A stretch of DNA of 64,000 nt from Mucilaginibacter tundrae (GTDB lineage: Bacteria; Bacteroidota; Bacteroidia; Sphingobacteriales; Sphingobacteriaceae). The stretch is taken from the NCBI RefSeq assembly GCF_013408825.1, contig NZ_JACCBZ010000003.1:434001-498000 (forward strand), written 5' to 3'. Below, piece by piece: positions 48,024-64,000 of this stretch. The position numbers and the translations under genes are program-made. The notes beneath the pieces were generated by a model. It made no database searches, was not told the DNA's origin, and saw only the letters and a list, made by a program, of their open reading frames with translations. How positions within the stretch are numbered: the stretch's first letter is position 1; every line of letters starts with the position of its first letter.

Positions 48024-48030
48024 CATTTTC

Positions 48031-48065: not shown

Positions 48066-48166
48066 AAAACAATCCACTATCTACAATAAAAAAGCAGGCA
48101 ACCAATATTCAAATAATGTCGTAAGGTTTATAAAGCATATGCTTTTATCAACATACTTCTAATGAT

Positions 48167-49825
48167 TTGAAATATTTTATCCAATTGGTATTAAGGATTC
48201 TTGACCACAAGGAAAAGGTAAAGTTTGGTTTAAATATTATTCTCGATCTACTGATTGGCGTGTTGGATATCGTTTTTTTAGGGTTATTGTTAATTGTAAT
48301 AAATTTTTACTCTACAAATCAACTTCCTGTCACCCATTTCCTGCAACAGTCTTTGTTTGATAAAAACTCATTGGTGCTGATAAGCTTTTTTTTAGGTTTA
48401 TATGGAATAAAAAACTGGTTAGGATATCATATTAGCAAATCCCAAAATTCTTTCTTTTACGATGTTGCATCCCGGTTATCCAAACAAAATATGTTGGATT
48501 ATTTAAGCGAGGATTACTTTAAGTTCATCAATATTGATTCATCGGTTTATACCCGTAAAATAAGCCAGCAACCTATAGAGTTTAGTAATTATATTCTCAC
48601 CAATATCCAACAAATCATCTCGCAAAGCATTCTGATTTTTTTCACTATAGTTGGAATACTGTTTTACCATCCATCTTTATTTATTTCTTTATTCGTTTTA
48701 CTGATGCCGCCTGTTATTTTATCAGGTTATTATATTAAATGCAGGCTAAAAGATGTTCGTACCAATTCAAAATTAACCAGCCAATTAACACTTCAGTACC
48801 TGAAAGAATCTCTTTCGGGCTATATTGAGAGCAATGTTTATAATAAAAATATTTTTTTTACAGATAGGTATTGGCGCTATCAAAAACAGCTTAACGGATA
48901 CATCGCTACTCAGCAAACCTTGCAAGGCTTACCCTCCAGGCTAATAGAGGTTTTTGCTGTATTAGGGTTCCTGATCTTAATTGCCATTAATAAATATTTT
49001 TCTGGCAATCATGGTGTTGGATTGTTGGATATTGGCGTATTTATGGCCGCGTCCTATAAGATTATTCCGGGCGTAGTTAAAATATTAAATAGCACCGGGC
49101 AAATTAAAACCTACGAGTTTACATTGAACGATTTGCAAAGGGATAAAGAGGTTGCAATTAGTGCCGGTATACTCAAATCAAGTATTAGTTCAATACAATT
49201 TAATAAAATAGGTTTTTCTTATCGACATAACCAGGTATTAAACAATTTTTCTCTTGATCTATCCTCAGGGGATTTTGTCGGTATAACCGGTCCATCGGGT
49301 TTGGGTAAAACTACTATTGTTAATTTATTATTGGGTTTTTTAGAGCAGGACAGCGGAACTATTTCTATCAATAATGTCGAAACAAATTCTTCTGATCGTC
49401 AACTTTTTTGGAATCGAATTGCTTATAGTAAGCAACAATCCTTTTTCATAAATGACTCTATTCTTAAAAATATAATACTTACTGATGGAGGATATGATTC
49501 TTCAAAATTAGATCATGTACTTTCTTTTTGCGGAGTTGATAATATACTGGGGCAATATCCTGAAGGCATCGAAAAGCTGATCACCGAAAATGGTAAAAAC
49601 ATAAGTGGCGGCCAAAAACAGCGGTTGATGCTGGCAAGAGCATTATATCATGATTTTGACTTGCTCATACTGGATGAACCCTTTAGCGAATTAGACGATA
49701 TTGCAGAAAAAACGCTGTTAATTAAGCTTAGGCTGTTAGCACAAAAAGGAAAGATGATCATCATGATAACACATAACAAATCCAGTTTATCCTTTTGTAA
49801 TAAATTGATCTCGCTAAATGACTAA
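48167..49825 (+). CDS. ABC exporter, fused permease and ATPase (glycan/lipid-linked type)
   Basis: A 552-residue half-transporter. Six membrane helices span about residues 15-320; the ATPase has Walker A GITGPSGLGKTTIVNLLLG, Q-loop AYSKQQSFF, signature ISGGQKQRLMLARAL and Walker B LLILDEPFSELDD with an intact catalytic glutamate. It most resembles PglK-type flippases of lipid-linked oligosaccharides, in keeping with its glycosyltransferase neighbours. No in-frame ATG fits; TTG at 48167 is the likely start. A 14-bp palindrome (48132-48145) lies upstream. It overlaps the next gene by 8 nt. Confidence 0.88.
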   Translation: MKYFIQLVLRILDHKEKVKFGLNIILDLLIGVLDIVFLGLLLIVINFYSTNQLPVTHFLQQSLFDKNSLVLISFFLGLYGIKNWLGYHISKSQNSFFYDVASRLSKQNMLDYLSEDYFKFINIDSSVYTRKISQQPIEFSNYILTNIQQIISQSILIFFTIVGILFYHPSLFISLFVLLMPPVILSGYYIKCRLKDVRTNSKLTSQLTLQYLKESLSGYIESNVYNKNIFFTDRYWRYQKQLNGYIATQQTLQGLPSRLIEVFAVLGFLILIAINKYFSGNHGVGLLDIGVFMAASYKIIPGVVKILNSTGQIKTYEFTLNDLQRDKEVAISAGILKSSISSIQFNKIGFSYRHNQVLNNFSLDLSSGDFVGITGPSGLGKTTIVNLLLGFLEQDSGTISINNVETNSSDRQLFWNRIAYSKQQSFFINDSILKNIILTDGGYDSSKLDHVLSFCGVDNILGQYPEGIEKLITENGKNISGGQKQRLMLARALYHDFDLLILDEPFSELDDIAEKTLLIKLRLLAQKGKMIIMITHNKSSLSFCNKLISLND

Positions 49826-50894
49826 TAAACCCGATACCCTGATTATTCTTACCCCCGGTTTTCCGGAGAATGAAGCGGATAGCACCTGTATACCTCCGCA
49901 ACAAATATTTGTAAAGGCTTTGAAGGATAATTACCCGCGATTAAACATCATCGTTTTAACATTTTATTATCCGTTTTGTTCTTCCCGGTATCAGTGGCAT
50001 GGAGTAGATGTTATATCATTTGGGGGCAATGGGAAAGGCCGAATATATAGTAAAGTGACCGGCATAAGGGCATGGGCTGGGTTAAAAAAAATAAATAAAG
50101 AATACCATATAATTGGCCTGTTGAGTTTCTGGTTAGGTAAATGTGCTTTTATAGGGAGTTGGTTTGCTGAAAAATATCACTTAAAGCACTATTGCTGGAT
50201 ATTGGGGCAGGATGCCAAAGCTGGTAATAAATATGTAAGAAGGATTAATCCCAAAGGGAAATCGTTAATTGGATTATCAGATTTTATTGTAGCTGAATTT
50301 AAAAAAAACTATGGAATAATACCTGAATATACAATTCCCGTAGGCATTGATACTTCATTGTTTAATGAAACTGCAGCAGAAAGAACTATCGACATCATTG
50401 GTGCAGGCTCCTTTATCCCATTGAAACAGTACCATGTATTTGTGGAAGTGATTAAATTACTAAAAGAGGATTTCCCCGGTATTAAAACTTGTATCTGCGG
50501 TGACGGCCCCGAAATGATGCATTTACGCACAATGATTGATATAATGGATTTAGAAGATAATATCAAACTATTAGGCCGGCAGACCCATGCACAGGTCTTA
50601 GCCTTAATGCAAAAGTCTAAAATATTTTTGCATACCTCCAACTATGAAGGTTTTGGTGCGGTTTGCCTTGAAGCATTATATGCCGGGGCACAGGTGGTAA
50701 GTTTTGTTAAACCGATGGATACCGATATTGAAAATTGGCATATAGTTGAGGATAAAGAAACCATGGTTCGATCCCTAAGGACTATTTTGCAAAATCAGGA
50801 TTTAAAACATCAGTCAGTATTCCCCTACTCCATACATGATAATGCCAAAGCAGCTATGGAATTATTTGACTATAACCTTGCTGCAATTTCCTGA
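49818..50894 (+). CDS. Glycosyltransferase family 4
   Basis: A 358-residue GT-B glycosyltransferase. N-terminal TLIILTPGFPENEADSTC leads the acceptor domain; the donor-binding part has GAGSFIPLKQYHVFVEVIK, CGDGPEMMHLR, LLGRQTHAQVLALMQKSKIF and the terminal EX7E-type LHTSNYEGFGAVCLEALYAG. Donor and acceptor sugars are unknown. It is coupled to the ABC exporter and converges on another GT4 gene, sharing 25 bp at their 3' ends. Confidence 0.9.
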   Translation: MTNKPDTLIILTPGFPENEADSTCIPPQQIFVKALKDNYPRLNIIVLTFYYPFCSSRYQWHGVDVISFGGNGKGRIYSKVTGIRAWAGLKKINKEYHIIGLLSFWLGKCAFIGSWFAEKYHLKHYCWILGQDAKAGNKYVRRINPKGKSLIGLSDFIVAEFKKNYGIIPEYTIPVGIDTSLFNETAAERTIDIIGAGSFIPLKQYHVFVEVIKLLKEDFPGIKTCICGDGPEMMHLRTMIDIMDLEDNIKLLGRQTHAQVLALMQKSKIFLHTSNYEGFGAVCLEALYAGAQVVSFVKPMDTDIENWHIVEDKETMVRSLRTILQNQDLKHQSVFPYSIHDNAKAAMELFDYNLAAIS

Positions 50895-51967
50895 ATCCGG
50901 GTTGCAATAGCCTCAAATGAAAGGTTTGATTTGAAATAATCCAAACAGTTTTTTTGCTTTTCCTTAATATTTGAAGCTTGTGTTTGCACCAACGCATTTA
51001 ATAAGGCATTTTCATTCCCCACCTCATACAATAACCCGCATCTGCCATTATCAGTTATCATCCTGAAGGAATCTATATTGGTTACAACAGGTACGCAGCC
51101 ACATGCCATAGCCTCACAAACAGCGGTTCCGCTGCCTTCATAATGTGAACCGGAAAGCAGGAAGTCTGCACTGTTAAACCAATAAAGTAAGTCGTCATGT
51201 AATACCTTGCCGACTAATATGATCTTGCTTCCATGCGGGCTTGCGTTTAGTAGTTGTTTAATATCATAAAGCAATTCTTCTGTTTGATAGATCATGTACA
51301 AACGAGCTTCACGGCTAACAGATGCAAATCTTAAAAATGCTTTTACAACATTCAATGGATCTTTATTTTCATTCAATCTCCCCACCCATAAAAAAACAAG
51401 ATTGCCATTAACACCGGTTTTTAGCCCGGCAGCTTTTTTATTAATAGGGTGAAAAAGAGTTGATACCTCCATTACCTCATGTATTTTTTGAGGCGATCCA
51501 AGATTACCTCTGTTCACCCAATCTAGCCCCATCGATTTGGAGGCAAACAGGTATGCATCTACCAAGGGATCAGCCAATCGTTGAATATATTTTTTTATCC
51601 CGGTAAAAGGCTTTTCCGCATGATGCTGGGCAATAAATTTTGCTTTTTTATTTACCAACGCTCTTAATTGAATAACTTGTAATGGTTGATGTAAACCATG
51701 TACAAAAACAATATCTGGATTTAAATCACGTACATATCGATTGATCTTATGAGGGAAAAATGTCTTTTTCCTGTCTAAATTCACAAAATGATGTTGTACA
51801 CCGTTATGAATGTATATGCCTTCGTAATTAATTTGTTTAATGCTTATTACTGTATGGTTTTCACTTAGTTGCCCTAATAACTCGGTATAACCCGTTGTTC
51901 TTTTGATCCAACTTTCGGGCGAAGTAAAATCCGGAGAATAATTGTAATTGACAAATACGTATAACAT
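50870..51967 (-). CDS. Glycosyltransferase family 4
   Basis: A 365-residue GT-B enzyme. Landmarks: VFVHGLHQPLQVIQLRALVN in the acceptor half, AQHHAEKP, VFLWVGRLNENKDPLNVVKA near residue 190, and the donor-site EX7E region SGSHYEGSGTAVCEAMACGC followed by VPVVTNIDSF. It leads no obvious coupling but is 9 nt after the flavin-reductase-like gene, so it is probably the last gene of the minus-strand unit starting at 55048. Confidence 0.9.
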   Translation of the reverse strand: MLYVFVNYNYSPDFTSPESWIKRTTGYTELLGQLSENHTVISIKQINYEGIYIHNGVQHHFVNLDRKKTFFPHKINRYVRDLNPDIVFVHGLHQPLQVIQLRALVNKKAKFIAQHHAEKPFTGIKKYIQRLADPLVDAYLFASKSMGLDWVNRGNLGSPQKIHEVMEVSTLFHPINKKAAGLKTGVNGNLVFLWVGRLNENKDPLNVVKAFLRFASVSREARLYMIYQTEELLYDIKQLLNASPHGSKIILVGKVLHDDLLYWFNSADFLLSGSHYEGSGTAVCEAMACGCVPVVTNIDSFRMITDNGRCGLLYEVGNENALLNALVQTQASNIKEKQKNCLDYFKSNLSFEAIATRIQEIAARL

Positions 51968-51976
51968 ATTTATAGG

Positions 51977-52894
51977 TTAATATACTGCCTCCACGCTATT
52001 GTAATTACTGTTTTGGAATTGCAAAAAGCTGATATGGTAAAAAGAAAAAGGACCGGGTTTTATTTGTTTAACGTTGACTACCTTGCCTACCAATAGCATG
52101 TGGAACCCCATTTTCCTGTGCCGGATAATTTCTATTTCTTTATATGATCCGCTAAAATCAGGAACCGGGAATCCGAATAATTCACTTGATTTGGTGCTGA
52201 AGGGCATCTTTTCTACTGGTGTGGGCGAAGTACTGGGGTGCTTGCCCAAATCATAAATAATGTTAATGTCGGCGGAATCTGTATCGCAAACTACTACTTT
52301 CTTTGCCGCTAAAATCTTGTCTAAAGTAACATTAGTAGTTCTTAAACCTAAAATATACAGACCTTCTTCTTCAATGTGGCTATGTATATCCATTGGAAAT
52401 ATATTGCAATAGTTCTCATCCAGGTAGGAGACAATGATGATACTTCGTGGATAAGAGTATAAGGCATTAATTACCTTCCGGCTGTTATAAGTGTTTTTGG
52501 GCGACTTTAACAGATAAGCAAAGAAAACCAACCTGTGTAGCGGGTTTAACTGGTAATTTTTAACCTTTTCAACTTTAAACAATATCAAAGCCCCATTTGT
52601 CGTAACGATCTTTTCAATTAGCGATACATTGATAGATGCATTCAGTTTTCCACCCTTTTTAAATTGAATTGTTGTTGCCTTATCAGCAATTGCAGCTAAT
52701 TGCCTACTCGGTAACCACACTGCAACACAAAATGGATCAAGGCAGATCATACCATGATGTTTGCTAATATCATGGGTGGAATCGCCTGTTTTTAAAAAAA
52801 CGCTTTCCTGTATCTGACTTTGTTTAAGCCTTGATATAAAAAAGGTTTTTATTTTATCACCCTTAAAAAATAATTTCCTGATTAGTTTATTCAT
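51977..52894 (-). CDS. Flavin-reductase-like split-barrel protein
   Basis: A 305-residue protein. The second half reads like the FMN-binding split barrel of flavin reductases: YPRSIIIVSYLDENYCNIFP, MDIHSHIEEEGLYILGLR, a KILAAKKVVVCDT strand, and the family-type FHMLLVGKVVNVKQ with a histidine. The first 120 residues show a similar strand pattern and may be a degenerate second barrel. I start at ATG 52894, not TTG 52909. In a glycan cluster this is unexpected; it could reduce flavin for another enzyme or bind a cofactor only. Medium confidence. Confidence 0.65.
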   Translation of the reverse strand: MNKLIRKLFFKGDKIKTFFISRLKQSQIQESVFLKTGDSTHDISKHHGMICLDPFCVAVWLPSRQLAAIADKATTIQFKKGGKLNASINVSLIEKIVTTNGALILFKVEKVKNYQLNPLHRLVFFAYLLKSPKNTYNSRKVINALYSYPRSIIIVSYLDENYCNIFPMDIHSHIEEEGLYILGLRTTNVTLDKILAAKKVVVCDTDSADINIIYDLGKHPSTSPTPVEKMPFSTKSSELFGFPVPDFSGSYKEIEIIRHRKMGFHMLLVGKVVNVKQIKPGPFSFYHISFLQFQNSNYNSVEAVY

Positions 52895-52895
52895 A

Positions 52896-53144
52896 TCAAA
52901 AAGTATCAATATCGGCAGAATGCTTTTTATAAAATTTTAAATGTTGTTCAAACGTTTTCTGTATTTAAAAAACAGGGTTAAAGCGGGTATCGTCATCCTT
53001 GCAAATGCCGTGATATATTACGATGCGACTGCCACAGGCTTCACTATAAAAATTATTGTATAACCCAATCCGATGCTCAACATCCCTTAACAGATATTTG
53101 CCTTCCCTGCTTAATTTAGAACCTATTTTATTTAATATTTCCAT
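52896..53144 (-). pseudogene. Polysaccharide deacetylase, truncated N-terminal remnant
   Basis: Minus-strand translation from 53144 gives an intact-looking start (MEILNKIGSKLSREGKYLL), then SRIVIYHGICKDDDTRFNPVF, the entry strand of a NodB-type polysaccharide deacetylase (IxYHGI). A TAA interrupts at 52965-52967; the same frame continues IQKTFEQHLKFYKKHS and stops at 52896. The catalytic TFDDG region and all downstream sequence are gone, replaced by the flavin-reductase-like gene. So this is an inactive fragment of about 83 codons lying 3 nt after the amidohydrolase stop. Confidence 0.75.
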
Positions 53145-53147
53145 AGT

Positions 53148-54308
53148 TTAATCAGGAATTGTTATACTTTTTGGGAAATTGGCATTTGGGTGATATTTCC
53201 TGATGTCAGCCATTAACCCGGGTAGATTTCCTTGAACATATTTGCAAACTCCATTTATATAGATCTTGCTGAAATCCTCTTTTATATTGCTTAATTGTTC
53301 CAATAGTTCCTCATCAAACAATCTTATTTCTCCTTGATGGATAACCAGCAATAGATCAGCGGGGGTAATTGCATAAAAAGCATCAAAGCCATCACTATTA
53401 GATGACTTTTGGGTTACAACCAGATCAGCATCTTTATCTTGTGTTATTCCGCCGTTGTTTAATCGCCATGTTTGGGCGGCGTTTATGGTTACAGTATTAT
53501 AAAGTTCATTGTCAGTCAGTAATCGACTTTTTCGTGCCGACTGCAAATGTCCCCACATATCCCATTCGCTGGTTAGGGTAGAATCGGTACCAAACAAGAT
53601 GTTAGTATGATCTTTTAGAAGATTAATCAGCGCGGTTTTATTCAGTAAAAAATAATTCGATTGCGGGCACCACACTACTGCTTCAAATTCTTCAGCCTGG
53701 GATTCGGTCATCGCGACAGCGTGTACACCTACAAGCTTTCTATTTAAAATATTCCATTTGATTAGTTGCCAGATCTCATTTTTTGATTGGAGGTCAACCC
53801 CTTCGCCCACATGTATATTTACCGGTAGATGCTTTTTTAAGGGATTGTTTAGTTTGAGTTTCCACCGTTTTTCAAAACCAACAGAATGTATGCAATGCGA
53901 ATCTTCAAACACATTAATTAAATCATTTGCTGTTCCAAGCTTTTCACCGTGGTTAATAACCGTGGTAACACCACATAACAGGTTTTTATAGATACCCCAT
54001 TTTGAACGTAATTCAACAGGTATTTTTAACACTTCCGCTATCTCCGGTTTATACCTTTCATGGATATACTTGCCCCATTCGGTATAATTATTATAAAGCT
54101 GACTACCTAGCTGGGGGAATAAATTAAAATCCAGATGATCATGCGAGTTGATCAATCCCGGGAAAATGATCCCGTTATTAAATTCCAGATGTAAAACCTC
54201 ATTTTCAGCAATAATAGGCGAGGATGATATCTCCGCTATTTTCCCATCACTAATTTTAATATTAATGGGTTGATTACTGTTTACCGGTTTTACATTATTT
54301 ATGATCAT
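53148..54308 (-). CDS. Amidohydrolase-superfamily metal-dependent hydrolase
   Basis: A 386-residue enzyme of the cytosine-deaminase-like branch. The N-terminal composite beta domain (NIKISDGKIAEISSS) is followed by the metal motif GLINSHDHLDF (His56, His58), TTVINHGEK, the barrel histidines in VNIHVGEGVDL and VGVHAVAM, and the metal aspartate in FGTDSTLTSEW. The C-terminal INAAQTWRLNNGGITQDKDA-type closing strand is present. Substrate unknown; deamination or hydrolysis of a ring or amide is expected. Its start shares one base with the methyltransferase stop. Confidence 0.88.
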   Translation of the reverse strand: MIINNVKPVNSNQPINIKISDGKIAEISSSPIIAENEVLHLEFNNGIIFPGLINSHDHLDFNLFPQLGSQLYNNYTEWGKYIHERYKPEIAEVLKIPVELRSKWGIYKNLLCGVTTVINHGEKLGTANDLINVFEDSHCIHSVGFEKRWKLKLNNPLKKHLPVNIHVGEGVDLQSKNEIWQLIKWNILNRKLVGVHAVAMTESQAEEFEAVVWCPQSNYFLLNKTALINLLKDHTNILFGTDSTLTSEWDMWGHLQSARKSRLLTDNELYNTVTINAAQTWRLNNGGITQDKDADLVVTQKSSNSDGFDAFYAITPADLLLVIHQGEIRLFDEELLEQLSNIKEDFSKIYINGVCKYVQGNLPGLMADIRKYHPNANFPKSITIPD

Positions 54309-55048
54309 TAAACTCTCTTGAAATGTATCCCGTAAATAATGGGTTGATCTTTAAATTTTTCGTAAACGTGTAGTGCATTTTGTTGCTCATAATAATGCTT
54401 CACTGTTTCATCAACTTTAATTTCCTGATGCGCTATTGCAGTAAAACCTTCCTTTAAAAGGATGTGTTTTATACTATCCGTTGTATGTACAAAGTTCTGA
54501 ACTGCGATATGCTTATCTCCATGCCTGAAGGTTCGCCTACCACCTGATGCCAGTGCATTTGGATGAAAATCTGTGATGATCATATCTCCCTGTTGCTTAG
54601 TTATCCTGCACCAGGTTTTCAGGGCGGATTCAATATCCTTAATGTGGGCAACCGTTAGCGTTGATAGGATCACATCATAAGTATCATCAGCAATATCCTC
54701 GAAATGATTATCCATGATCACATAAGTTTTTGCTTCGGGAAACTTGGTAGTCAGTTTTTCTAACATTCCTGTTGAAACATCAAACCCGGTTAAACTTGCC
54801 GGGTTTTGCTGAAAAATTTTTCCCCAATGCCTGCCTGTACCACATCCTATATCAACAACAGTTTTGTTTTCAAGGCTTAAACCGCCAAGAAGTTTGGTGA
54901 ACAATATTTCATCAAGGTCAAGCATCAGGTTACCCGGCTGCGCATCATAGTTTTCGGCCCATATATCGTAAGCCTCAACTACACCCTTATTCTCGATAGT
55001 TGTAGGTAAAAGCTGCCTTCTGATATAATTCTTAATGGTATTTATCAA
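54308..55048 (-). CDS. Class I SAM-dependent methyltransferase
   Basis: A 246-residue methyltransferase. Motif I is VVDIGCGTGRHWGKIF, followed by LTGFDVSTGMLEKL (motif II) and DVILSTLTVAHIKDIESAL. The substrate is unknown: it could be a sugar, lipid or small molecule. Translation seems to start at TTG 55048. It is the first gene of a minus-strand unit with the amidohydrolase, flavin-reductase-like and GT4 genes, opposite the radical SAM unit across a structured gap. Confidence 0.88.
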   Translation of the reverse strand: MINTIKNYIRRQLLPTTIENKGVVEAYDIWAENYDAQPGNLMLDLDEILFTKLLGGLSLENKTVVDIGCGTGRHWGKIFQQNPASLTGFDVSTGMLEKLTTKFPEAKTYVIMDNHFEDIADDTYDVILSTLTVAHIKDIESALKTWCRITKQQGDMIITDFHPNALASGGRRTFRHGDKHIAVQNFVHTTDSIKHILLKEGFTAIAHQEIKVDETVKHYYEQQNALHVYEKFKDQPIIYGIHFKRV

Positions 55049-55095: not shown

Positions 55096-55175
55096 TTACG
55101 CTCTATAAGCTATAATGGTTGCTCTATGTATTTTATTTAATCAGGCAGGCAACCATCGTATTTTGAAGAGCGTAA
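55096..55175. promoter_or_regulatory. Nested dyad in the divergent control region
   Basis: An outer perfect 9-bp dyad (TTACGCTCT at 55096-55104 and its complement at 55167-55175) encloses an inner perfect 8-bp one (ATGGTTGC at 55115-55122, complement at 55149-55156). Together they form one long interrupted stem. It may be an RNA structure or paired operators. Confidence 0.55.
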
Positions 55176-55227
55176 CTGTATTGTAAATTGTTTTTTAGTA
55201 ATTAAGTAAGTTTTATGTTAACTGTGT

Positions 55228-55279
55228 CCCCCGCTATGTAGGGCATGCCGGTGGATCAATTCCACCGGTATTGCGGGGG
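55228..55279. promoter_or_regulatory. Strong hairpin upstream of the radical SAM genes
   Basis: A 10-bp stem (TGCCGGTGGA, one G-T pair, 5-nt loop) sits inside a second 7-bp stem CCCCCGC/GCGGGGG, with an 11-nt bulge on one side. It lies 26 nt before the first radical SAM ATG. No T run follows, so it is not a simple terminator. Confidence 0.6.
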
Positions 55280-55305
55280 CTTGCTAATAACGATGTAAAC
55301 AAACC

Positions 55306-56811
55306 ATGAGTAATAAAATATTATTGTTTAACCCGAAAAGCGCTATCAACAAGTATCGCATTCCTAATTCAATTTTAAACATAGCCGCATCGGTTGATGG
55401 TAAATACGAATGGGCTATTATTGATGGTAACTGTGAACCGGATCCCATCAAAAAAATCGAAAGCTATTTAAGCACCGGCGAATATAAATACCTTGGTTTT
55501 ACGGTAATGCCCGGCCCGCAATTAAGGCAGGCTATACTGGCTGCAAAAGCTATCAAAGAGAAATACCCGCATACTAAAATGATTTGGGGTGGATACTTTC
55601 CATCAAACCAACCTAATGCGGTTTTATACTCGGGTTATGTTGATTTTATAATTAATGGGCCCGGCGATAATGCGTTTCCGAATTTGATTGATGCGCTGGA
55701 AAACGGTACGCCATTCGAATTCATTAAAAACCTCATCTATAAAAATCGCGATAGCAAAATTATCATCAACGGCAAAGAAGACCTGCTTGATCAAGATTCA
55801 TTGCCCCCCTTACCTTATGATAAACTGAATGAGTTTTACCCCATCCCTAAATTTTTAGGCAAAACATACCTGGGCGAAAAAACATTGGCTTATCACTCCA
55901 GTATTGGCTGCCCATTCACTTGTTCTTTTTGCGCGGTAGTACCTATTTATGAAGCAAGATGGAAAGGCAAATCGGCACAAAAGGTTTATGAAGACGTAAA
56001 GTATATTAAAGATAAATGGGGCGCTGATGCTATCGAGTTTCACGATAATAATTTCTTCGTATCTGAAAAACGAGCGGTCGAATTTTCGAGGCTGATCAAA
56101 GACGAGAATATGACATGGTGGGGAATGGCGCGGATCGACACGATGAGCAAGTTTAAAGATTCATCATTAGCTGCCATTCGCGAAGCGGGGTGTAAGATCA
56201 TTTTTTTTGGTGCTGAAAGCGGTAATAACGAAGTTTTGGCGCAGATGGATAAAGGCGGTACCCAAACCGGTAACCAGATCATCGAGTTTGCTGAACGCCT
56301 GAAGAAATTTGACATTATTCCCGAATACTCATTTGTTTTAGGCACGCCCGGTCCTACTCCCGAAAAGGTGCAGGCAGGTATTGACTTTGAGATCAACTTT
56401 ATCAAAAAAGTAAAAAATGTAAATCCCAAAACGGAGATCATTATTTATACCTATAGCCCAGTGCCAACAGAGGGGTCGGAAATGTATAAGCAGGTGTTGG
56501 CCAGTGGCTTTAAATTTCCGCAAACGCTGGAGGATTGGATCAGCCCCGCCTGGGAGAGTTTCGACCTAAGAAAAAATCCACTGACTCCATGGCTCACGGC
56601 TGAGATGATAGACAAGATCAGAAACTTTGAAACAGTATTGAACGGTGTATACCCTACGGTGACAGATATCCGCATGAGTATGTTAAAAAGGAAGATCGTA
56701 AAATTAATAGCAAGCTTACGCTATAAGGTTGACCTGTATTACTATCCATACGAAATAAAACTGCTGCAAAAGATCTGGAGATATCGCCAACCCGAAACGC
56801 AAGGCTTTTAA
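55306..56811 (+). CDS. Radical SAM protein with B12-binding-like N-terminal domain (1)
   Basis: A 501-residue enzyme. The N-terminal half (about residues 1-130) has the B12-binding-like Rossmann pattern of this superfamily (YLGFTVMPGPQLRQAI, MIWGGYFPS, IINGPGDNAFPNL) but no DxHxxG cobalamin motif. The radical SAM barrel begins with the [4Fe-4S] motif CPFTCSFC (Cys202, 206, 209) and continues with DAIEFHDNNFFV, GMARIDTM and FFGAESGNNEVLAQMDKGG. Homologues carry out methylations or rearrangements; substrate unknown. First of four plus-strand genes. Confidence 0.9.
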   Translation: MSNKILLFNPKSAINKYRIPNSILNIAASVDGKYEWAIIDGNCEPDPIKKIESYLSTGEYKYLGFTVMPGPQLRQAILAAKAIKEKYPHTKMIWGGYFPSNQPNAVLYSGYVDFIINGPGDNAFPNLIDALENGTPFEFIKNLIYKNRDSKIIINGKEDLLDQDSLPPLPYDKLNEFYPIPKFLGKTYLGEKTLAYHSSIGCPFTCSFCAVVPIYEARWKGKSAQKVYEDVKYIKDKWGADAIEFHDNNFFVSEKRAVEFSRLIKDENMTWWGMARIDTMSKFKDSSLAAIREAGCKIIFFGAESGNNEVLAQMDKGGTQTGNQIIEFAERLKKFDIIPEYSFVLGTPGPTPEKVQAGIDFEINFIKKVKNVNPKTEIIIYTYSPVPTEGSEMYKQVLASGFKFPQTLEDWISPAWESFDLRKNPLTPWLTAEMIDKIRNFETVLNGVYPTVTDIRMSMLKRKIVKLIASLRYKVDLYYYPYEIKLLQKIWRYRQPETQGF

Positions 56812-56822
56812 TTATACAGATT

Positions 56823-57875
56823 ATGATGATGCCTGCTTTATATGACACTTTTAAACGATATCGCACGTTGCAAACGCATGCCATATCTGCCTTGCCTGTT
56901 GTTATTTTAATGCCGCATAGCGCCTGTAACTGCCGTTGTGTAATGTGTGATATATGGAAGGACAATAAAAATCTGAAGCAACTTACCGAACAGGATGTAG
57001 AAGGCTTAATGGCTTCGCTAAAAACATTCGGAACAAAACAAGTAGCCATGTCTGGTGGTGAGGCTTTGCTTAATGCCAACTTTTTTAAGTTGTGCGAAAT
57101 TTTAAAATATGCGGGTATTAGCGTTACGTTGCTCACTACGGGCTTAACCATAAAAAGGAATGCCGAAAATATATTGAGATGGGTAGATGAGGTGATAGTA
57201 TCCTTAGATGGCGATGAGCCACTGCATGATGCTATCCGCAATGTGCCGGGTGTTTTTAAAAAGTTGAAAGATGGTGTAGAGCACATCAAAGCGCTGAACC
57301 CTAATTACAGGATAACGGCGCGTACCGTGATCCATCGCTTAAACTTCAGGAACTGGGAATCCATTATTAGCGAAGCGAAAAAAATGGGTATCGACCAGAT
57401 CAGCTTTTTGCCGGCAGATGTAAGCAGCCATGCTTTTAACCGCCAGATGGCCTGGGAAGAACCGAAACAAGACGAAATATTAATATCAAAAAAAGAATTG
57501 CCCGAGTTGATGGAAACCATCACACGCATCATAGATAATCACGGTGATTTCACTTCAGGCTTTATAGCAGAGTCGCCCGAAAAAATCAGGCAGATCTATT
57601 ACTACTATGCCGCATTTTACAAACTGAACCCGTTCCCGTTTAAAAAATGCAATGCACCCTGGGTATCAACAGTTATTGAAGCCGACGGCAGTGTTAGGCC
57701 ATGCTTTTTTCATGATACAGTAGGCAATATCAAGCATGATTCATTAGCCAATATTTTAAACAGTGATAAGGCCATCAGCTTTAGAAAATCATTAAGTAAA
57801 AATATGGGCACCAACGCAACCTGTGTAAAATGTGTTTGCTCGTTAAATTTATCGCCTCTACAAAAAATCGCATAA
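56823..57875 (+). CDS. Radical SAM protein with SPASM-like C-terminus (2)
   Basis: A 350-residue enzyme without a B12-binding half. The cluster motif is ACNCRCVMCDIW (Cys35, 39 and 42), with VAMSGGEALLN as the SAM-binding GGE motif and VIVSLDGDEPLHDAIRN. The C-terminal part holds further cysteines (KKCNAPW, RPCFFHD, CVKCVC), suggesting an auxiliary iron-sulfur cluster as in SPASM or twitch proteins. It lies 11 nt after the first radical SAM gene and 1 nt before the third. Confidence 0.9.
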   Translation: MMMPALYDTFKRYRTLQTHAISALPVVILMPHSACNCRCVMCDIWKDNKNLKQLTEQDVEGLMASLKTFGTKQVAMSGGEALLNANFFKLCEILKYAGISVTLLTTGLTIKRNAENILRWVDEVIVSLDGDEPLHDAIRNVPGVFKKLKDGVEHIKALNPNYRITARTVIHRLNFRNWESIISEAKKMGIDQISFLPADVSSHAFNRQMAWEEPKQDEILISKKELPELMETITRIIDNHGDFTSGFIAESPEKIRQIYYYYAAFYKLNPFPFKKCNAPWVSTVIEADGSVRPCFFHDTVGNIKHDSLANILNSDKAISFRKSLSKNMGTNATCVKCVCSLNLSPLQKIA

Positions 57876-57876
57876 T

Positions 57877-59334
57877 ATGAAAAATATTCTTTTTTCTCAT
57901 TCTTATTTTTTGCGTTACGACCCTAAGCAATGGCAGTTAGGGCAACCCTATCCGCCATTGGGTACTTTATACGCGGCAGCATTGATGCGTGCAAATGATT
58001 ATCAGGTTGCTTTGTTTGATACCATATTTGTAAGTAATCCCGAGGAGGTTACGCCTGTCATCGAACAAAACAAACCCGATTTTTTCGTAATTTATGATGA
58101 TGGGTTTAATTACCTCACCAAAATGTGCCTTACCAATATGCGCGAGGCTGCATTTAGCATGAGCAAAATAGCAAAGGCTGAAGGAAGTACCGTGATTGTA
58201 TCCAGTTCGGACTCTACAGATAGGTATGAAGAATACTTGAAAGAGGGTGCCGATTTTGTGATCATCGGCGAAGCAGAACACACGTTATTAGAATTAACTA
58301 ATTATATTGAAAGCGGCGGAACAGATTTTTTCACGATCAAAGGTTTAGCTTATATACATGACGGTAGTGTTATTAAAACACCCGGACGACCTGTTTTAAA
58401 AGAATTGGATAGCCTGCCATTGCCTGCCTGGGATTTGATAAACATGGAGCAATACAAGCAAGCCTGGTTAAAGAATGCAGGGTATTTTTCCTTAAATATG
58501 AGCACCACACGCGGTTGCCCGTTTAAGTGTAATTGGTGCGCGAAACCTATCTACGGAAACAGGTATAATTCCCGTAGCCCTGAAAATGTGCTTGCTGAGA
58601 TCAAGCTATTAAAGAAACGATATGGCATGGATCATATCTGGTTCTGTGATGATATTTTTGGTTTGAAACCGGGGTGGATAATTGAGCTGGCAAAGCTTAT
58701 TGAACAAGAAAAAATCAATATCAGGTTCAAGATTCAATCCAGGGCCGATCTTCTTGTTGATGAGGTTACGGTAAAAGCATTAGCTGCAGCCGGTTGTGAA
58801 AACGTTTGGATAGGAGCCGAAAGCGGTTCGCAAAAAATATTGGATGCCATGGATAAGGGAATCAGTATTGAGCAGATTCGTGAATCGACCAGATTGATGA
58901 AGAGGGTCGGAATAAAACCCTCGTTTTTTATCCAATTTGGCTATCCCGGTGAATTAAAGGATGATATTAGTTTAACTATTGATATGATCAATGAGTTGTT
59001 GCCATTTGAAATAGGTATTTCTGTTTCCTATCCCTTACCCGGCACCTCATTTTATGAAAAAGTAAAAACCGAGTTACAGAAAAAAACCAATTGGACAGAT
59101 TCTAACGAAATGGCGCTAATGTTTCAAAACACTTATCAGCCATCGTATTATAAACAACTACATCGCTATGTGCACCAAAATTACCATAAGCACCTGGCAA
59201 AAAATGCTTTGGTTAAGCTAATGCAGAATCCGGCACTTACTGATATTAAAAACTTAAAAAAAGCTTTATCCGTGGTATATCATACACCTGCTACATTTTT
59301 AGAAGGAGTAAAATTGAGGCAACTGGAGGGATAG
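57877..59334 (+). CDS. Radical SAM protein with B12-binding-like N-terminal domain (3)
   Basis: A 485-residue enzyme of the same architecture as the gene at 55306 but clearly diverged. N terminus: QPYPPLGTLYAAALMRANDY and VALFDTIFVSNPEE, then FVIIGEAEHTLLEL, typical of the B12-binding-like half, again without a DxHxxG motif. The radical SAM motif is GCPFKCNWC (Cys214, 218, 221), followed by HIWFCDDIFGLKP, KIQSRADLL, VWIGAESGSQKILDAM and FIQFGYPGE. Its TAG stop overlaps a possible GTG start of the methyltransferase. Confidence 0.9.
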   Translation: MKNILFSHSYFLRYDPKQWQLGQPYPPLGTLYAAALMRANDYQVALFDTIFVSNPEEVTPVIEQNKPDFFVIYDDGFNYLTKMCLTNMREAAFSMSKIAKAEGSTVIVSSSDSTDRYEEYLKEGADFVIIGEAEHTLLELTNYIESGGTDFFTIKGLAYIHDGSVIKTPGRPVLKELDSLPLPAWDLINMEQYKQAWLKNAGYFSLNMSTTRGCPFKCNWCAKPIYGNRYNSRSPENVLAEIKLLKKRYGMDHIWFCDDIFGLKPGWIIELAKLIEQEKINIRFKIQSRADLLVDEVTVKALAAAGCENVWIGAESGSQKILDAMDKGISIEQIRESTRLMKRVGIKPSFFIQFGYPGELKDDISLTIDMINELLPFEIGISVSYPLPGTSFYEKVKTELQKKTNWTDSNEMALMFQNTYQPSYYKQLHRYVHQNYHKHLAKNALVKLMQNPALTDIKNLKKALSVVYHTPATFLEGVKLRQLEG

Positions 59335-59339
59335 TGAGA

Positions 59340-60161
59340 ATGAAAATTGCAACCGAAAATAATGAAGCGCTTGCCGAAAGAGCCTTCACTACACAATCAT
59401 CACTTTTTGATGAAATTTATGCCGATAACACCATTGTAAGTTACAAAAGGGAGCGCGTGCGTAGCCATGTATTGCAATATTTAGTGCCGAATAGCTACAT
59501 ATTAGAATTAAACAGCGGCACCGGTGAGGACGCAATATTTTTTGCTGAGAATGGCCACCGTGTTTATGCCACTGATATATCAACCGGTATGCAGCAAGAG
59601 TTAAAACGAAAGATTGCCGTGAAGGGCCTGGATAACAGGATCGGTAATGAGCTTTGCTCATTCACCATGCTACATCACCTTGAAAATAGGGGGCCTTTTG
59701 ATCATATCTTCTCTAACTTTGCTGGATTAAACTGTACTGATGAATTAGGTAAAGTACTCGATTCATTCAATAGTTTATTGGTACCCGGCGGAAAGGTTAC
59801 TTTGGTAATATTGCCAAAGTTTTGTCTATGGGAGTTTTTACTTTTATTTAAAGGAAAATTCCGCACCGCTTTCAGGCGGCTCTTTAGCAGCAATGGCAGC
59901 AAAGCCCACATTGAAGGCACTTACTTTAATTGTTGGTATTATAACCCGTCATTTATCATAAAAAGATTAAAAAACCGGTTCGACGTATTAAATATTGAGG
60001 GATTGTGTACCATCGTCCCGCCATCTTATATTGAAGGCTTCGCGGAAAAACATCCGATAAGTTATAGGATATTGAGAGATAAAGAAAACAAGCTAAAATC
60101 TCGTTGGCCGTGGAAATATATTGGCGATTATTACATCATCTCCCTGCAAAAGAAAGCTTAA
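59340..60161 (+). CDS. Class I SAM-dependent methyltransferase
   Basis: A 273-residue methyltransferase with motif I ILELNSGTGEDAIFFAENGH, motif II VYATDIS and the post-I stretch DHIFSNFAGLNC, and a long C-terminal lid rich in Phe, Trp and Arg (PKFCLWEFLLLFKGKFR). The ATG at 59340 is preferred; a GTG at 59334 overlaps the radical SAM stop (TAGTG) and would add two residues. A GGAGGG sequence upstream resembles a ribosome site, rare here. Last gene of the radical SAM unit, converging with 4-nt overlap on the nucleotidyltransferase. Confidence 0.88.
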   Translation: MKIATENNEALAERAFTTQSSLFDEIYADNTIVSYKRERVRSHVLQYLVPNSYILELNSGTGEDAIFFAENGHRVYATDISTGMQQELKRKIAVKGLDNRIGNELCSFTMLHHLENRGPFDHIFSNFAGLNCTDELGKVLDSFNSLLVPGGKVTLVILPKFCLWEFLLLFKGKFRTAFRRLFSSNGSKAHIEGTYFNCWYYNPSFIIKRLKNRFDVLNIEGLCTIVPPSYIEGFAEKHPISYRILRDKENKLKSRWPWKYIGDYYIISLQKKA

Positions 60162-61114
60162 TGCGCTAAGCTGCTTTCATATTTTAATAAAAGACCTGAT
60201 ACCTTATATTCGTAGGTAGAAAGTAATTTTTCCTGAAAGTTCTTAGGATTGGGTTTAGCAAAATGTTTACCGGTTAACAAGCTTAAAACATTGCCGTGGC
60301 TATTCAATCTTTTAAGCAAGGTCTTTTTCAGCCACCTGTTGGTGGTGATATTCATCAATATATTATCCAAGGCATTTCCCAGAGAAAAACTGAATAAACC
60401 CTCAAACAGCATTTTGAAAATTGTTTTCTTCACAGGCATAGCCGATGAAATACGCATGTTTTTATTAGGCAGAAATTCACGGGTCCAGGTGTTGGCGGCA
60501 TAAAATTTCTCAAATACAATATCACCTTGTAAGGGTATTAAGGTGCCAACTTCTATTGCTGTATAAATATTTTTTTCTGGTATCTCCAGTTGCTGCATGT
60601 CGATGTAATAGTTCATGCAAAATAAATGCTCTTTATTAACCAGGAATGTTAATTTTTTAAAGCAATGCATAATAGTCCGGGCTATCCATAACCTATTTTT
60701 CTCGGTGATAATGAACAGATCGACATCCGAGTCCGCGTCAGCAAAATTTTTGGACAACGATCCTGAAATAGCTATACCCCGTACATAAGGAAACTTGATT
60801 AACAGGCTACCAACCTTCTCCGCAATTTTAATCAATTCGGCCGCTTTTTGGTTTCCCTCAAGTCGTCTTACTACAATATAATGGTCGGGCGATAGCGTAT
60901 AAAATTTGTCGAATTGATAGATAGTACCATTATCAACCAAACATCTTATAGCATCACCAAAAGAGTCGTAATTAAATTTATTTCCTAAAAAAAGATATAC
61001 CTCGGCCCGCGTTAAAGGGTAGTTAAACATATCAAAATACGCCAGTGTCGCTAATATATTTTCCTTAATTGCTGACAAGTTTTTGTGTGTTAAAGGGTAT
61101 AATCTATTTTGCAT
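60158..61114 (-). CDS. Pol-beta-type nucleotidyltransferase domain protein
   Basis: A 318-residue protein. An N-terminal winged-helix-like region (NILATLAYFDMFNYPLTRAE) precedes the nucleotidyltransferase fold with GSLSKNFADADSDVDLFIIT, giving Gly118-Ser119 and metal-binding Asp130 and Asp132. The C-terminal 150 residues are basic with hydrophobic patches and no recognised domain. It resembles proteins placed near O-antigen or exopolysaccharide genes in Bacteroidota. It may transfer a nucleotide to a protein, sugar or lipid. Not coupled to its neighbours. Confidence 0.82.
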   Translation of the reverse strand: MQNRLYPLTHKNLSAIKENILATLAYFDMFNYPLTRAEVYLFLGNKFNYDSFGDAIRCLVDNGTIYQFDKFYTLSPDHYIVVRRLEGNQKAAELIKIAEKVGSLLIKFPYVRGIAISGSLSKNFADADSDVDLFIITEKNRLWIARTIMHCFKKLTFLVNKEHLFCMNYYIDMQQLEIPEKNIYTAIEVGTLIPLQGDIVFEKFYAANTWTREFLPNKNMRISSAMPVKKTIFKMLFEGLFSFSLGNALDNILMNITTNRWLKKTLLKRLNSHGNVLSLLTGKHFAKPNPKNFQEKLLSTYEYKVSGLLLKYESSLAH

Positions 61115-61243: not shown

Positions 61244-62542
61244 TCAGGCCTGCACATGTTCAAATATACCGTGTGGCTGCTGGTTGCTATCAGTTAGTTT
61301 GCTATAAAAATATTTTTTGGTTGAAAAACTGAAGAACGAATAAAATAAAGCATAGAAAAATATGCCCTTATCAACATCAAGTAAATTCTCCGAAAGAGAA
61401 ACAATGGCTATAAGCAAAATGAAAGTAAAAAACAGTAAATCTTTGTGCTTAAAAGATATAAACACCCCCCAGATCAAAGTTGCCGCATAGATCAAAAAAC
61501 CAATTACTCCGGACTTAAGCCAAAGGCTCAAATATTCATTATGCGCATTCAGCTTGCTTAGGTAAGAGTTATAAAATTTGTGCTTGTAGAAAGCATCCTG
61601 CAATAACCCCATTTCAGATCCCGAGCCATAACCAATTACAGGTTTCTTGTTTATTAAACCGGTAACAACTTGCCACCTTGCTAAACGGCCATCGCTGATT
61701 TCATTACTCGTTGCTTTTGAGAGGTCGATCTTAAACTCATTCAAAAAGCGTTCACGGAAAGCACCTGAGGATAGTATACCGGCTATTAACATCAGTGATA
61801 GTAAAGAAGAAACGGCAACAAATTTCCATCGCTTTGAGCCCTTAAAAATAAAATAAGGAACCGCGATATTTATAACTGTGAATACTACCAGCAATACAGA
61901 TTTTGATGAAAGTTGAATTAAGCCGGCAGATAAAATGATAATGCAAAAGAGATGGAATAAATGGGTGTATTGATTTTTTTCTTTTATTAAAAAGCCGATC
62001 AGGTAAACTAACGCGATTACCAGCTGCATTGAGAAAAAGGTAGCGTGCATATCAATTGGTTCTGCAAAGTTATGGTTGATAAAAGCACCGGATAATATAG
62101 CTAATACAGGCAATTGATAATGCCGGATGGTAACAAAGGCATCGGCATATAAATAAATAACAGTAATTGTACAAACGAGCGCGAATGCTAACAGCAATTG
62201 CGACCGGTATTTTTTAACATCTAATGGGTTTAGACAAAAAAATACCGGAAATAGAAAAATAGGTATCTGTTTGCCCCAATCATTAAAGCCCTCGTTTTGG
62301 TTGGCGCTGTAAAAGGTGCTTAATACCGTTATGAAAAATACAGATTGCAAAATTATAGTCCTCCATTTAAACAAAGGTTTAACTGTTCCTCGTTTTAAGT
62401 GTATAAGCGTATGTATGCCATAACTTATCAATATTAAATGGCTATAAAACCTGTCGAAAGGCAGGCTTGCCATTAACAGCATTAAGTGGTAATAACTTAT
62501 TTTATTAGCCAGGCTATCCTTTATTTGGAACAATCCGCTCAT
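61244..62542 (-). CDS. O-antigen ligase/polymerase-like membrane protein
   Basis: A 432-residue protein with about ten to twelve membrane segments and one large periplasmic loop (roughly residues 300-345) containing the Wzy/WaaL-type region KPVIGYGSGSEMGLL and LSKLNAHNEYLSLWLKSGVI, with the conserved H-N-E. Such proteins join glycan chains to lipid A core or polymerise repeat units. Which it does here cannot be told. It overlaps the upstream DUF1972 glycosyltransferase by 29 nt, so the two are coupled. Confidence 0.9.
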   Translation of the reverse strand: MSGLFQIKDSLANKISYYHLMLLMASLPFDRFYSHLILISYGIHTLIHLKRGTVKPLFKWRTIILQSVFFITVLSTFYSANQNEGFNDWGKQIPIFLFPVFFCLNPLDVKKYRSQLLLAFALVCTITVIYLYADAFVTIRHYQLPVLAILSGAFINHNFAEPIDMHATFFSMQLVIALVYLIGFLIKEKNQYTHLFHLFCIIILSAGLIQLSSKSVLLVVFTVINIAVPYFIFKGSKRWKFVAVSSLLSLMLIAGILSSGAFRERFLNEFKIDLSKATSNEISDGRLARWQVVTGLINKKPVIGYGSGSEMGLLQDAFYKHKFYNSYLSKLNAHNEYLSLWLKSGVIGFLIYAATLIWGVFISFKHKDLLFFTFILLIAIVSLSENLLDVDKGIFFYALFYSFFSFSTKKYFYSKLTDSNQQPHGIFEHVQA

Positions 62543-63647
62543 GGTTTAAATTATAATGACTTTCCATAATAAATTGCTCGTACTCGTCAATTATCTTTTC
62601 CCAGTTAAACTGGTATTTTATTTTATGCAAATTGTTGCTCACCATCATCTTTTCAATATCATGCCGCTGAACGGTTTCAACCAGGTTACGTACCTCTTTA
62701 GCGTTAGAAAAATAGAAAGCATCAGAGTTCAATACAGATTTATTAAAAGGATTATTATGCGCCGCTATAAGCGCTTCGCTGGCCATGGCTTCCAGTAATG
62801 AAGGGTTTGTACCACCAACACTATGCCCGTGGAAATACAGGTACGAATTGTTTTGTAACGAACGCACTTTACCGGTATCAAAAATCGACCCTTTAAATTC
62901 TATCCTTTCGTCGTTCTTAAATTTATTGGTGATAAACTTGCCGAAACGGTTGCCGGTATCGCCCAAAACCTTAAACTTACGGTGCGAGCTGCTGTTGTTA
63001 AAGCCTTCCAAAATAGTTTCTATGTTATTTTCAGGCTCCATCCTAGCCATCAGCAAAAAGTAATCTTCCTTTAAAGCCTCGCTATAGTCAACCTGCTCCC
63101 GTTCTTCATCAGAAAACAGATCAGCGCCATAAGGGATGTATTTGCTGTTGACATTGTATTTATCAGCGAGATAAGATTTGATCACCATGGAATCAGAAAT
63201 GTAAAACTGGCTATGTTTTACCGCCAATTTCTCAGCATACCGCAAAAACTTTTGTACCGATGGCGAGTACTTTGATCTTTTCCATTCCAGCCCATCCATG
63301 TTGGTGATGATGGTGCTGTTTGGCGGATACAACTTCCCCCATACTGAACTGCTTGTGTAGCCCATTATCAAAACCACGTCGAACTTTCTTTTTCGGGCAT
63401 CGAGCAGGCAGTTCAAATCATACACAAACTGTCCGGCAGCTCCCATGATGTATTCGGGATCATAGCAGTGTATTATTTCTACACCGTTCCAGCTTTTTTC
63501 CTGATAAGCATGATTATGCGAATTATAAACAGAAACTGAATGCCCTCGTTTTACCAATCCTTCCGAAACATATTCTGATATATGTTCAAAACCACCATAA
63601 TGGTTGGGGATACCGCGTGTACCCAAAATTGCTACTCTTAATTTCAT
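62514..63647 (-). CDS. DUF1972/GT4 glycosyltransferase (rhamnosyltransferase-like)
   Basis: A 377-residue glycosyltransferase with the DUF1972 N-terminal domain (RVAILGTRGIPNHYGGFEHI) and a GT4 C-terminal domain. Middle landmarks are GYTSSSVWGKLYPPNSTIIT, NMDGLEWKRSKY and FYISDSMVIKSYL; the donor site is weakly seen in YFHGHSVGGTNPSLLEAMAS. Homologues add rhamnose or other deoxysugars; the sugar is not determined here. It overlaps both the ligase-like gene (29 nt) and the upstream GT gene (4 nt). Confidence 0.9.
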   Translation of the reverse strand: MKLRVAILGTRGIPNHYGGFEHISEYVSEGLVKRGHSVSVYNSHNHAYQEKSWNGVEIIHCYDPEYIMGAAGQFVYDLNCLLDARKRKFDVVLIMGYTSSSVWGKLYPPNSTIITNMDGLEWKRSKYSPSVQKFLRYAEKLAVKHSQFYISDSMVIKSYLADKYNVNSKYIPYGADLFSDEEREQVDYSEALKEDYFLLMARMEPENNIETILEGFNNSSSHRKFKVLGDTGNRFGKFITNKFKNDERIEFKGSIFDTGKVRSLQNNSYLYFHGHSVGGTNPSLLEAMASEALIAAHNNPFNKSVLNSDAFYFSNAKEVRNLVETVQRHDIEKMMVSNNLHKIKYQFNWEKIIDEYEQFIMESHYNLNHERIVPNKG

Positions 63648-64000
63648 ATAGCTGCTAATTGATATGCTTTTAATGTTTGTAGGGCCGAATGTTTCCAGGT
63701 GTATTTGGTCAGTATTTTTTGGCGAAGTGCGTCATCAACAGGTGCTTCACTTGCCCGTTTAATGGCCTTAAATATGCTTTTCGGGTTTCCGGGATCACAG
63801 TAATAGGCATAATCTTCAAAATACTCTTTCGTATCGCCCTTGTCTGTTATCACCAGGTTACAGCCCATGGTTGCCGCTTCTATTGAGCTTAAGCCCGTAG
63901 TTTCGAACCAGCTTGGTAACACATGTACTTTAGCCAGTTGATAATATTGAACCAACTCGCTTTGCGGCAAGTGATCTATAAAACTCACATTGGCCGTAGC
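63644..64000 (-). CDS. Glycosyltransferase family 4, C-terminal part
   Basis: The gene runs off the window: the frame stays open to base 64000, leaving 118 codons of the C-terminal domain. Seen: HVLPSWFETTGLSSIEAATM, the GT4 donor-site E(x7)E-type pair, then GCNLVITDKGDTKEYF and DPGNPKSIFKAIKRA. Its stop overlaps the DUF1972 gene start by 4 nt, so it is part of the same minus-strand operon. Confidence 0.88.
   Translation of the reverse strand, partial: ATANVSFIDHLPQSELVQYYQLAKVHVLPSWFETTGLSSIEAATMGCNLVITDKGDTKEYFEDYAYYCDPGNPKSIFKAIKRASEAPVDDALRQKILTKYTWKHSALQTLKAYQLAAI

Follow-up and report, generated by a model that had tools for sequence, protein, structure and literature searches.

Known settings of cobalamin-type radical S-adenosylmethionine (SAM) chemistry are antibiotics, peptides, hopanoids and methanogenesis. 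The structurally solved enzymes OxsB, TsrM, CysS, TokK and MgmA act on a nucleotide, tryptophan, an aminobenzoate, a carbapenem and a protein glutamine, respectively, and not on glycans, while the substrates of BlsE and BtrN are sugars or aminocyclitols. Gentamicin tailoring involves two class B (cobalamin-dependent) radical SAM methyltransferases, GenD1 and GenK, alongside the N-methyltransferase GenN (PMC5461906). The present analysis concerns a set of three radical SAM genes and one SAM methyltransferase gene, designated RS1, SPASM, RS3 and MT4, in a 64-kb window (i.e., the whole stretch of 64,000 nucleotides of Mucilaginibacter tundrae DNA that was analysed). The set belongs to a glycan pathway and serves the glycan built by the surrounding cluster, because gene order is conserved, the genes co-occur among genomes, and a putative promoter shared with the cluster is kept even where that cluster is split. 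More specifically, and with a probability that is put at roughly 0.58, the four genes constitute a tailoring module of a Wzx/Wzy-type surface glycan, performing radical tailoring of the glycan or of its precursor.

The radical SAM gene unit and its products

RS1, SPASM, RS3 and MT4 are four intact open reading frames (ORFs), all on the plus strand (Table 1), and the tight unit with gaps of 11, 1 and 5 nt that had been described in a sequence-only reading of this DNA is recovered. Spacers of 11 nt (56812-56822) and 1 nt (57876) separate RS1 from SPASM and SPASM from RS3, and the RS3/MT4 junction depends on the start codon of MT4: ATG 59340 would leave 5 nt, and GTG 59334 would give a 1-nt overlap. 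The domains proposed in that reading were likewise found. The B12-binding-like half is matched in RS1 (Pfam B12-binding 39.2 bits, cut-off 32.1; Radical_SAM 52.5 bits) and, as a borderline case, in RS3 (29.4 bits, under the cut-off, or 32.2 bits, just above it, in a genome-wide search; Radical_SAM 82.0 bits). The second protein, with its SPASM-like cysteines, carries a C-terminal SPASM domain (45.3 bits, cut-off 21.5) beside Radical_SAM (60.6 bits), both above the Pfam cut-offs, and the fourth product is a methyltransferase (Methyltransf_25, 41.3 bits).

In each of the three radical SAM families, alignment shows the CX3CX2C cysteines to be invariant, those of the cluster motif being C202/C206/C209 in RS1 and C214/C218/C221 in RS3, and C276, C294, C334, C337 and C339 of the SPASM protein are invariant among 20 sequences. 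The traits of class B radical SAM enzymes, i.e., CX3CX2C within a Radical_SAM domain and an N-terminal B12-binding domain, are present, and genome-wide there are four B12-binding domain matches at E <= 0.001, namely RS1, RS3 and two on other contigs. To judge from sequence, RS1 and RS3 may use cobalamin. Comparison of coding sequences with those of the related locus L056 indicates that all four genes are under purifying selection (dN/dS of 0.016 for RS1, 0.031 for SPASM, 0.038 for RS3 and 0.046 for MT4; the figures hold for L056 only, dS being saturated in comparison with five more distant loci). Furthermore, predicted structures indicate the fold class of RS3 and of the product of the adjoining nucleotidyltransferase gene (NTase), the latter being a candidate for the aminoglycoside nucleotidyltransferase-like proteins, of which a common fold with GS and DxD motifs would be typical. 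A PHROGs search returned weak matches only (radical SAM, methyltransferase or nameless). In one related genome (G005:C319 2578-4072), RS1 is split into two pieces with internal stops, while the adjoining SPASM gene is open and RS3 is open to the contig end.

Assignment of RS1 or RS3 to HpnJ, BchE, AprD4 or another named family was rejected, all listed matches being under the NCBIfam cut-offs. The hopanoid enzyme HpnJ is nonetheless the best NCBIfam match of both RS1 (115.7 bits) and RS3 (158.2 bits), which raises the alternative that the module modifies a membrane lipid or polyprenyl carrier in a similar manner. A polysaccharide deacetylase gene in part of the loci would suit such a role, much as HpnK occurs in hopanoid clusters. 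Both scores are, however, far under the 577.6 bits required for HpnJ, the cluster genes scanned included none recognisable as a hopanoid or fatty-acid gene, and the neighbours are an O-antigen ligase, Wzx and glycosyltransferases; a lipid substrate is considered distinctly unlikely.

In the PDB, the SPASM profile is matched best by SkfB, and SPASM and B12-type radical SAM enzymes are common maturases of ribosomally synthesised and post-translationally modified peptides (RiPPs). Maturation of a small precursor peptide by these enzymes would nevertheless appear highly improbable, as no widely conserved small ORF was found in 50 divergent spacers between MT2 (a methyltransferase gene of the cluster) and RS1, the other spacers of the cluster and overlapping frames not having been searched. 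The largest groups of similar short frames in these spacers had four and three members, the group of four overlapping a promoter palindrome described below.

Conservation of the neighbourhood

Three locus sets were compared: 23 regions of related genomes, from which the profiles used to label gene families were built; 80 named loci, representing the best 80 of at least 544 confirmed relatives by RS3 profile and therefore biased towards close ones; and 27 regions from 26 other RS3 genomes of a phylum-wide draw. RS3 of L143 (G715) was missed by the ORF caller and that of L146 (G406) was left unlabelled, though the genome search found both.

Conserved synteny had been named in the sequence-only reading as a check on its proposal that the four genes act in sequence on one scaffold. 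When the comparison was run, RS1 and SPASM were found to accompany RS3 in 59 of the 65 named loci whose sequence extends 6 kb or more upstream of RS3, the remainder having RS1 alone (two) or neither (four), and none having SPASM alone. MT4 lies immediately downstream of RS3 in 75/76 named loci, with an overlap of 4 nt in 41 and of 1 nt in 18, and NTase follows no more than seven genes downstream in 58/70. Loci that keep the genes together carry the names Mucilaginibacter, Pedobacter, Dyadobacter and Chitinophagaceae. All four genes are present in the loci named M. lappiensis (L095), M. gossypiicola (L085) and M. oryzae (L090), and that of M. pedocola (L080) has RS3-MT4 without RS1 and SPASM. 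RS1 is found downstream of RS3 in L132. Recurring insertions between the genes encode the methyltransferase MT16 (45/65 loci) and the membrane mannosyltransferase-like PMT22, while GNAT and polysaccharide deacetylase genes join the neighbourhood in many loci.

Among the 26 other genomes of the phylum-wide draw, NTase directly precedes RS3 on the same strand in 20, as compared to 13 in which MT4 is immediately behind RS3, and NTase-RS3 is therefore the most widely kept pair. These two genes form the most ancient core, to which RS1 and SPASM were added, and MT16, MT2 and an amidohydrolase gene (AH) belong to the same neighbourhood. The idea of a single pathway thus survives in part: the genes form one unit, their order is kept, they share genomes and, in Mucilaginibacter and its near relatives, their promoter type is common with glycan genes, but they are not an indivisible set of four, RS1 being optional and MT16, AH and MT2 being members too. 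In several distant relatives, RS3 and an MT4-like gene are accompanied in their region by RS28 (Table 1), which encodes another B12-type radical SAM protein, ~33-38 % identical to RS3.

AH retains the HxH, HxGE, H and D motifs in alignment, which we take to be the metal motifs of deaminase-type enzymes, and is nearest to deaminase-type families (NCBIfam aminofutalosine deaminase, 46.7 bits, cut-off 320). One guess is that it acts on the pathway, or on the 5'-deoxyadenosine released by the radical SAM enzymes. Together with the GNAT and polysaccharide deacetylase genes of many loci, and with the fact that SPASM enzymes often act on small molecules, it also speaks for an alternative in which the module makes a non-sugar substituent or aglycone (a heterocycle, or a compound of amino-acid or guanidino type) that glycosyltransferases or an acetyltransferase attach to the glycan. 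No scaffold-forming gene (synthase, nonribosomal peptide synthetase or carrier protein) was recognised, however, among the cluster genes scanned, and a variant that is without AH (e.g., L107 and L112) still keeps RS1, SPASM, RS3 and MT4, and a substituent of this kind is regarded as rather unlikely. Such variant loci (e.g., L107, L112, L116 and L121) are without MT2 as well, and carry, behind RS1, a gene whose PrmC-like methyltransferase product has an NPPYY motif, as if one methylation replaced another. The PrmC-like gene adjoining RS1 was located at L107 7554-8219, L112 7552-8220, L121 6172-6837 and L051 17021-17683.

Co-occurrence among genomes

Co-occurrence was determined in a set of 60 genomes and in 395 genomes drawn across Bacteroidota, the genome under study being included in each. 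RS3 is present in 24 of the 60, and all 21 genomes with RS1, all 19 with SPASM and all 22 with AH have RS3, as do 23/24 MT4 genomes and 23/24 NTase genomes. G044 has MT4 (31 % identity) without RS3; in G005, a contig end truncates RS3, and no MT4 or NTase was found there. An NTase gene was also located at G024:C14 151212-151991 (L168), in a genome where RS3, MT4, RS1, SPASM and AH were not found. In the set of 395, RS3 occurs in 27 genomes, RS1 in 17 and SPASM in nine; every RS1 and every SPASM genome has RS3, and RS1 is present in 8/9 SPASM genomes. On one contig, RS1 lies within 20 kb of RS3 in 16/17 genomes, the two being on separate contigs in G616. RS1 is optional, and SPASM occurs almost only alongside RS1; the nesting of RS3, RS1 and SPASM would fit a pathway whose first step is taken by RS3, or whose shared scaffold RS3 provides.

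The patchy occurrence of RS3 (24/60 and 27/395 genomes) and the adjoining tRNA-Arg gene, a frequent landing site of genomic islands, resemble a mobile island, whose radical SAM genes might be mere hitchhikers with no common task. This is barely credible, given that several families retain the order and strand of the genes, and that co-occurrence and promoter persist where the cluster is split.

A shared promoter motif and the leader of the operon

The motif GGCAACC-N16-CGTA is placed ahead of four units of the cluster, one of them the radical SAM operon: the 64-kb window holds exactly three matches (before the ATP-binding cassette (ABC) exporter gene, MT2 and RS1), and L169, a locus extending beyond the window, holds one (before F12). 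Its form is that of promoters for extracytoplasmic function (ECF) sigma factors, with AAC in the -35 element, CGT in the -10 element and a fixed spacer, and the S. coelicolor SigE list includes sites such as GGCAACC...CGTCTA (PMC6767563). Across the 80 named loci (1.49 Mb), GCAACC-N16-CGTA has 131 copies, versus 0-4 at every other spacing from 10 to 24, and 60 permuted hexamers used as a control give a mean of 1.2 and a maximum of 5 copies. At spacings of 15-18 there are 137 matches, versus 5, 9 and 7 in Markov shuffles, and they precede RS1 (35), MT2 (32), F12 (30), RS3 (12), ABC (9), FlvR (3), AH (3), PMT22 (1), NTase (1) and unlabelled genes (6), with no downstream gene for five. In G017 and G027, the half of the cluster with NTase and Wzy lies on another contig or ~260 kb off, and the motif is kept on both halves. 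The motif is probably an active promoter. It is absent from L051 and L052 and, as GGCAACC-N15..18-CGTA, occurs in only 2/31 loci L105-L135; the regulation is therefore confined to Mucilaginibacter and its near relatives.

An ECF sigma gene lies directly past the cluster (L169 7927-8568), followed by a gene for a 497-aa protein with a hydrophobic stretch, and has homologues, 77-85 % identical, in L058, L061 and L035. It is conceivable, as a guess, that this sigma factor drives the GGCAACC-N16-CGTA promoters. A Bacteroidetes housekeeping promoter pattern had no match in the 50 MT2/RS1 spacers. A GGTTGCC...GGCAACC palindrome was rejected as an RNA hairpin or operator, as it represents two back-to-back promoter halves; none of its seven pairs is changed on both sides, in sequences picked by that very pattern.

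Upstream of RS1, a leader hairpin was observed, in which 11/18 pairs are changed on both sides among ten sequences, and which has no U-run. Similar hairpins occur in L056-L060, L062, L063, L065, L066, L071, L075, L094 and L050. A model of the hairpin, R1, is found before RS1 in 14/44 sources, ten of these being training rows, and gives weak partial matches only, in L072 and L078, elsewhere in 0.96 Mb. Besides a tRNA, Rfam had no match in the window at the gathering threshold, and control of the operon by a cobalamin riboswitch was rejected on this basis; three cobalamin riboswitches are found elsewhere in the genome.

The surrounding surface-glycan cluster

The surface-glycan surroundings put forward in the sequence-only reading are borne out by an ABC exporter, six glycosyltransferases, an O-antigen ligase domain and a Wzx-type flippase (Table 1). 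The flippase (family F18, PF01943, 74.1 bits) lies beyond the window, in L169, as do GT9, the large protein F12, for which no Pfam match was found, and a GT2. Flippase, O-antigen ligase/polymerase-like protein and the six glycosyltransferases are the traits of a Wzx/Wzy-type cluster. No activated-sugar synthesis gene was recognised among the cluster genes scanned; neither an initiating sugar phosphotransferase nor Wza/Wzc export genes were found among them, the rest of the genome not having been searched for these.

Table 1. Features of the window and of related loci. Coordinates refer to the window unless a locus is named.
Feature	Coordinates	Strand	Basis
tRNA-Arg, directly upstream of the first gene of the cluster	47952-48024		
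Putative ECF-type promoter (GCAACC-N16-CGTA), 44 nt upstream of ABC gene	48098..48123	+	
ABC exporter, ABC_tran domain, part of conserved neighbourhood	48167..49825	+	ORF, Pfam
GT11, glycosyltransferase (Glycos_transf_1)	49818..50894	+	Pfam
GT8, glycosyltransferase (Glycos_transf_1)	50870..51967	-	Pfam
FlvR, weakly flavin-reductase-like protein	51977..52909	-	19.5 bits, cut-off 27
AH, amidohydrolase	53148..54308	-	Pfam, alignment
MT2, SAM methyltransferase (Methyltransf_23)	54308..55048	-	Pfam
Putative ECF-type promoter of MT2	55097..55122	-	
Putative ECF-type promoter of radical SAM operon, back to back with that of MT2	55149..55174	+	
Leader hairpin upstream of RS1	55226..55280	+	Pairs changed on both sides, 10 loci
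RS1, B12-binding-domain radical SAM enzyme, 501 aa	55306..56811	+	ORF, Pfam, alignment
SPASM-domain radical SAM enzyme, 350 aa	56823..57875	+	ORF, Pfam, alignment
RS3, B12-type radical SAM enzyme, 485 aa	57877..59334	+	ORF, Pfam, alignment
MT4, SAM methyltransferase	59334..60161	+	ORF, Pfam
NTase, winged helix and nucleotidyltransferase, neighbour of RS3 across the phylum	60158..61114	-	Pfam
O-antigen ligase/polymerase-like protein (Wzy_C)	61244..62542	-	Pfam PF04932, 60.9 bits
GT10, glycosyltransferase (DUF1972, Glycos_transf_1)	62514..63647	-	Pfam
GT13, glycosyltransferase, cut by window end	63644..64000	-	ORF, Pfam
Putative ECF-type promoter before F12	L169 5369-5394	-	
RS28, further B12-type radical SAM enzyme	L051 8028-9416; L052 10173-11567; also L139, L141, L156, L158, L160		

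Proposed function

As to the substrate, the reactions, the order of the steps and the responsible sigma factor of the tailoring module, we infer the following scheme. RS3, with the product of its overlapping partner gene MT4 and that of the adjoining NTase, would perform a basic modification; RS1 and then the SPASM enzyme would carry out further steps, with MT2, MT16 and the amidohydrolase in auxiliary roles. RS3 and RS1 may methylate unactivated carbons or remove a hydroxyl group by radical chemistry, reasoning by analogy with relatives, i.e., C-methylation of the GenD1/GenK type or dehydration of the AprD4 type. The SPASM enzyme may perform a radical oxidation, epimerisation or dehydration, and MT4 an O- or N-methylation. 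The target would be the repeating sugar unit or a precursor of it, linked to a lipid or a nucleotide. The radical SAM operon and the principal glycan units would share a single ECF-sigma-type promoter in Mucilaginibacter and its near relatives.

A number of observations weigh against the tailoring module as proposed. Among the matches listed, none of RS1, SPASM, RS3 and MT4 reached an NCBIfam cut-off, and therefore no reaction is assigned by homology. The B12-binding score of RS3 is borderline, AprD4-type relatives may not need cobalamin, and SkfB, the best PDB match of the SPASM profile, is a peptide enzyme. Outside the close relatives, MT4 follows RS3 in only half of the phylum-draw genomes mentioned above, and distant loci differ strongly in neighbourhood, their glycan genes being less obvious; the co-occurrence p-values, moreover, ignore shared ancestry. 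Nor is the promoter universal, being found before 35/69 RS1, 32/52 MT2, 30/39 F12 and 9/32 ABC genes (some cut at locus ends) and, as noted, being scarce in L105-L135, and before the cluster's own Wzx and GT2 genes, upstream of F12, no exact copy of the motif was found.

A wider proposal, which is advanced tentatively, is that a Bacteroidota cobalamin-dependent radical SAM assembly line rewrites the sugar rings of surface polysaccharides under an envelope-type ECF sigma switch, with the supply of B12 setting the surface chemistry. The residues to be expected would then possibly be C-branched, C-methylated or deoxygenated, in forms that surface glycans are not known to contain. Among the matches listed in the open-licence literature, no title dealt with the present combination of genes, with radical SAM enzymes encoded in an exopolysaccharide or O-antigen cluster of Bacteroidota, or with the GGCAACC-N16-CGTA promoter in Sphingobacteriaceae. 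If the tailoring module is real, two cobalamin-type enzymes and a SPASM enzyme within a surface-polysaccharide regulon would extend such chemistry to the bacterial envelope, and unusual sugars would be predicted in the exopolysaccharides of common soil Bacteroidota. The shared promoter motif offers a handle for finding the remaining pathway genes in Mucilaginibacter genomes.

Comparison with known systems

The solved cobalamin-type enzymes OxsB, TsrM, CysS, TokK and MgmA differ from the enzymes described here, with identities of 15-21 %. AprD4, the radical SAM 1,2-diol dehydratase of apramycin, is likewise distinct, RS3 and RS1 scoring 98.7 and 39.9 bits against a cut-off of 500 (NF033070), and no AprD3-type reductase was recognised in the cluster. 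HpnJ (TIGR03471) is, as noted, the best NCBIfam match of both RS1 and RS3, although RS1 falls ~5x and RS3 ~3.7x under its cut-off and no hopanoid gene was recognised nearby. TIGR04295 (B12_rSAM_oligo) also comprises B12-type radical SAM proteins, with a short name pointing to oligosaccharides, yet it is a family without assigned function, for which RS1 scores 39.1 and RS3 94.9 bits against a cut-off of 400. BlsE (cytosylglucuronate decarboxylase), BtrN and SkfB are among the PDB matches of the SPASM profile, although the SPASM protein reaches only 51.5 bits against the BlsE cut-off of 400.

Among the NCBIfam matches listed there was no GenD1/GenK model. In its composition, gentamicin tailoring resembles the locus in combining two B12-type radical SAM enzymes with a SAM methyltransferase, which there act on the assembled glycoside (PMC5461906). 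The gentamicin product is a diffusible aminoglycoside antibiotic, whereas the enzymes described here are joined by a SPASM enzyme and encoded within a cluster for the export of a surface glycan.

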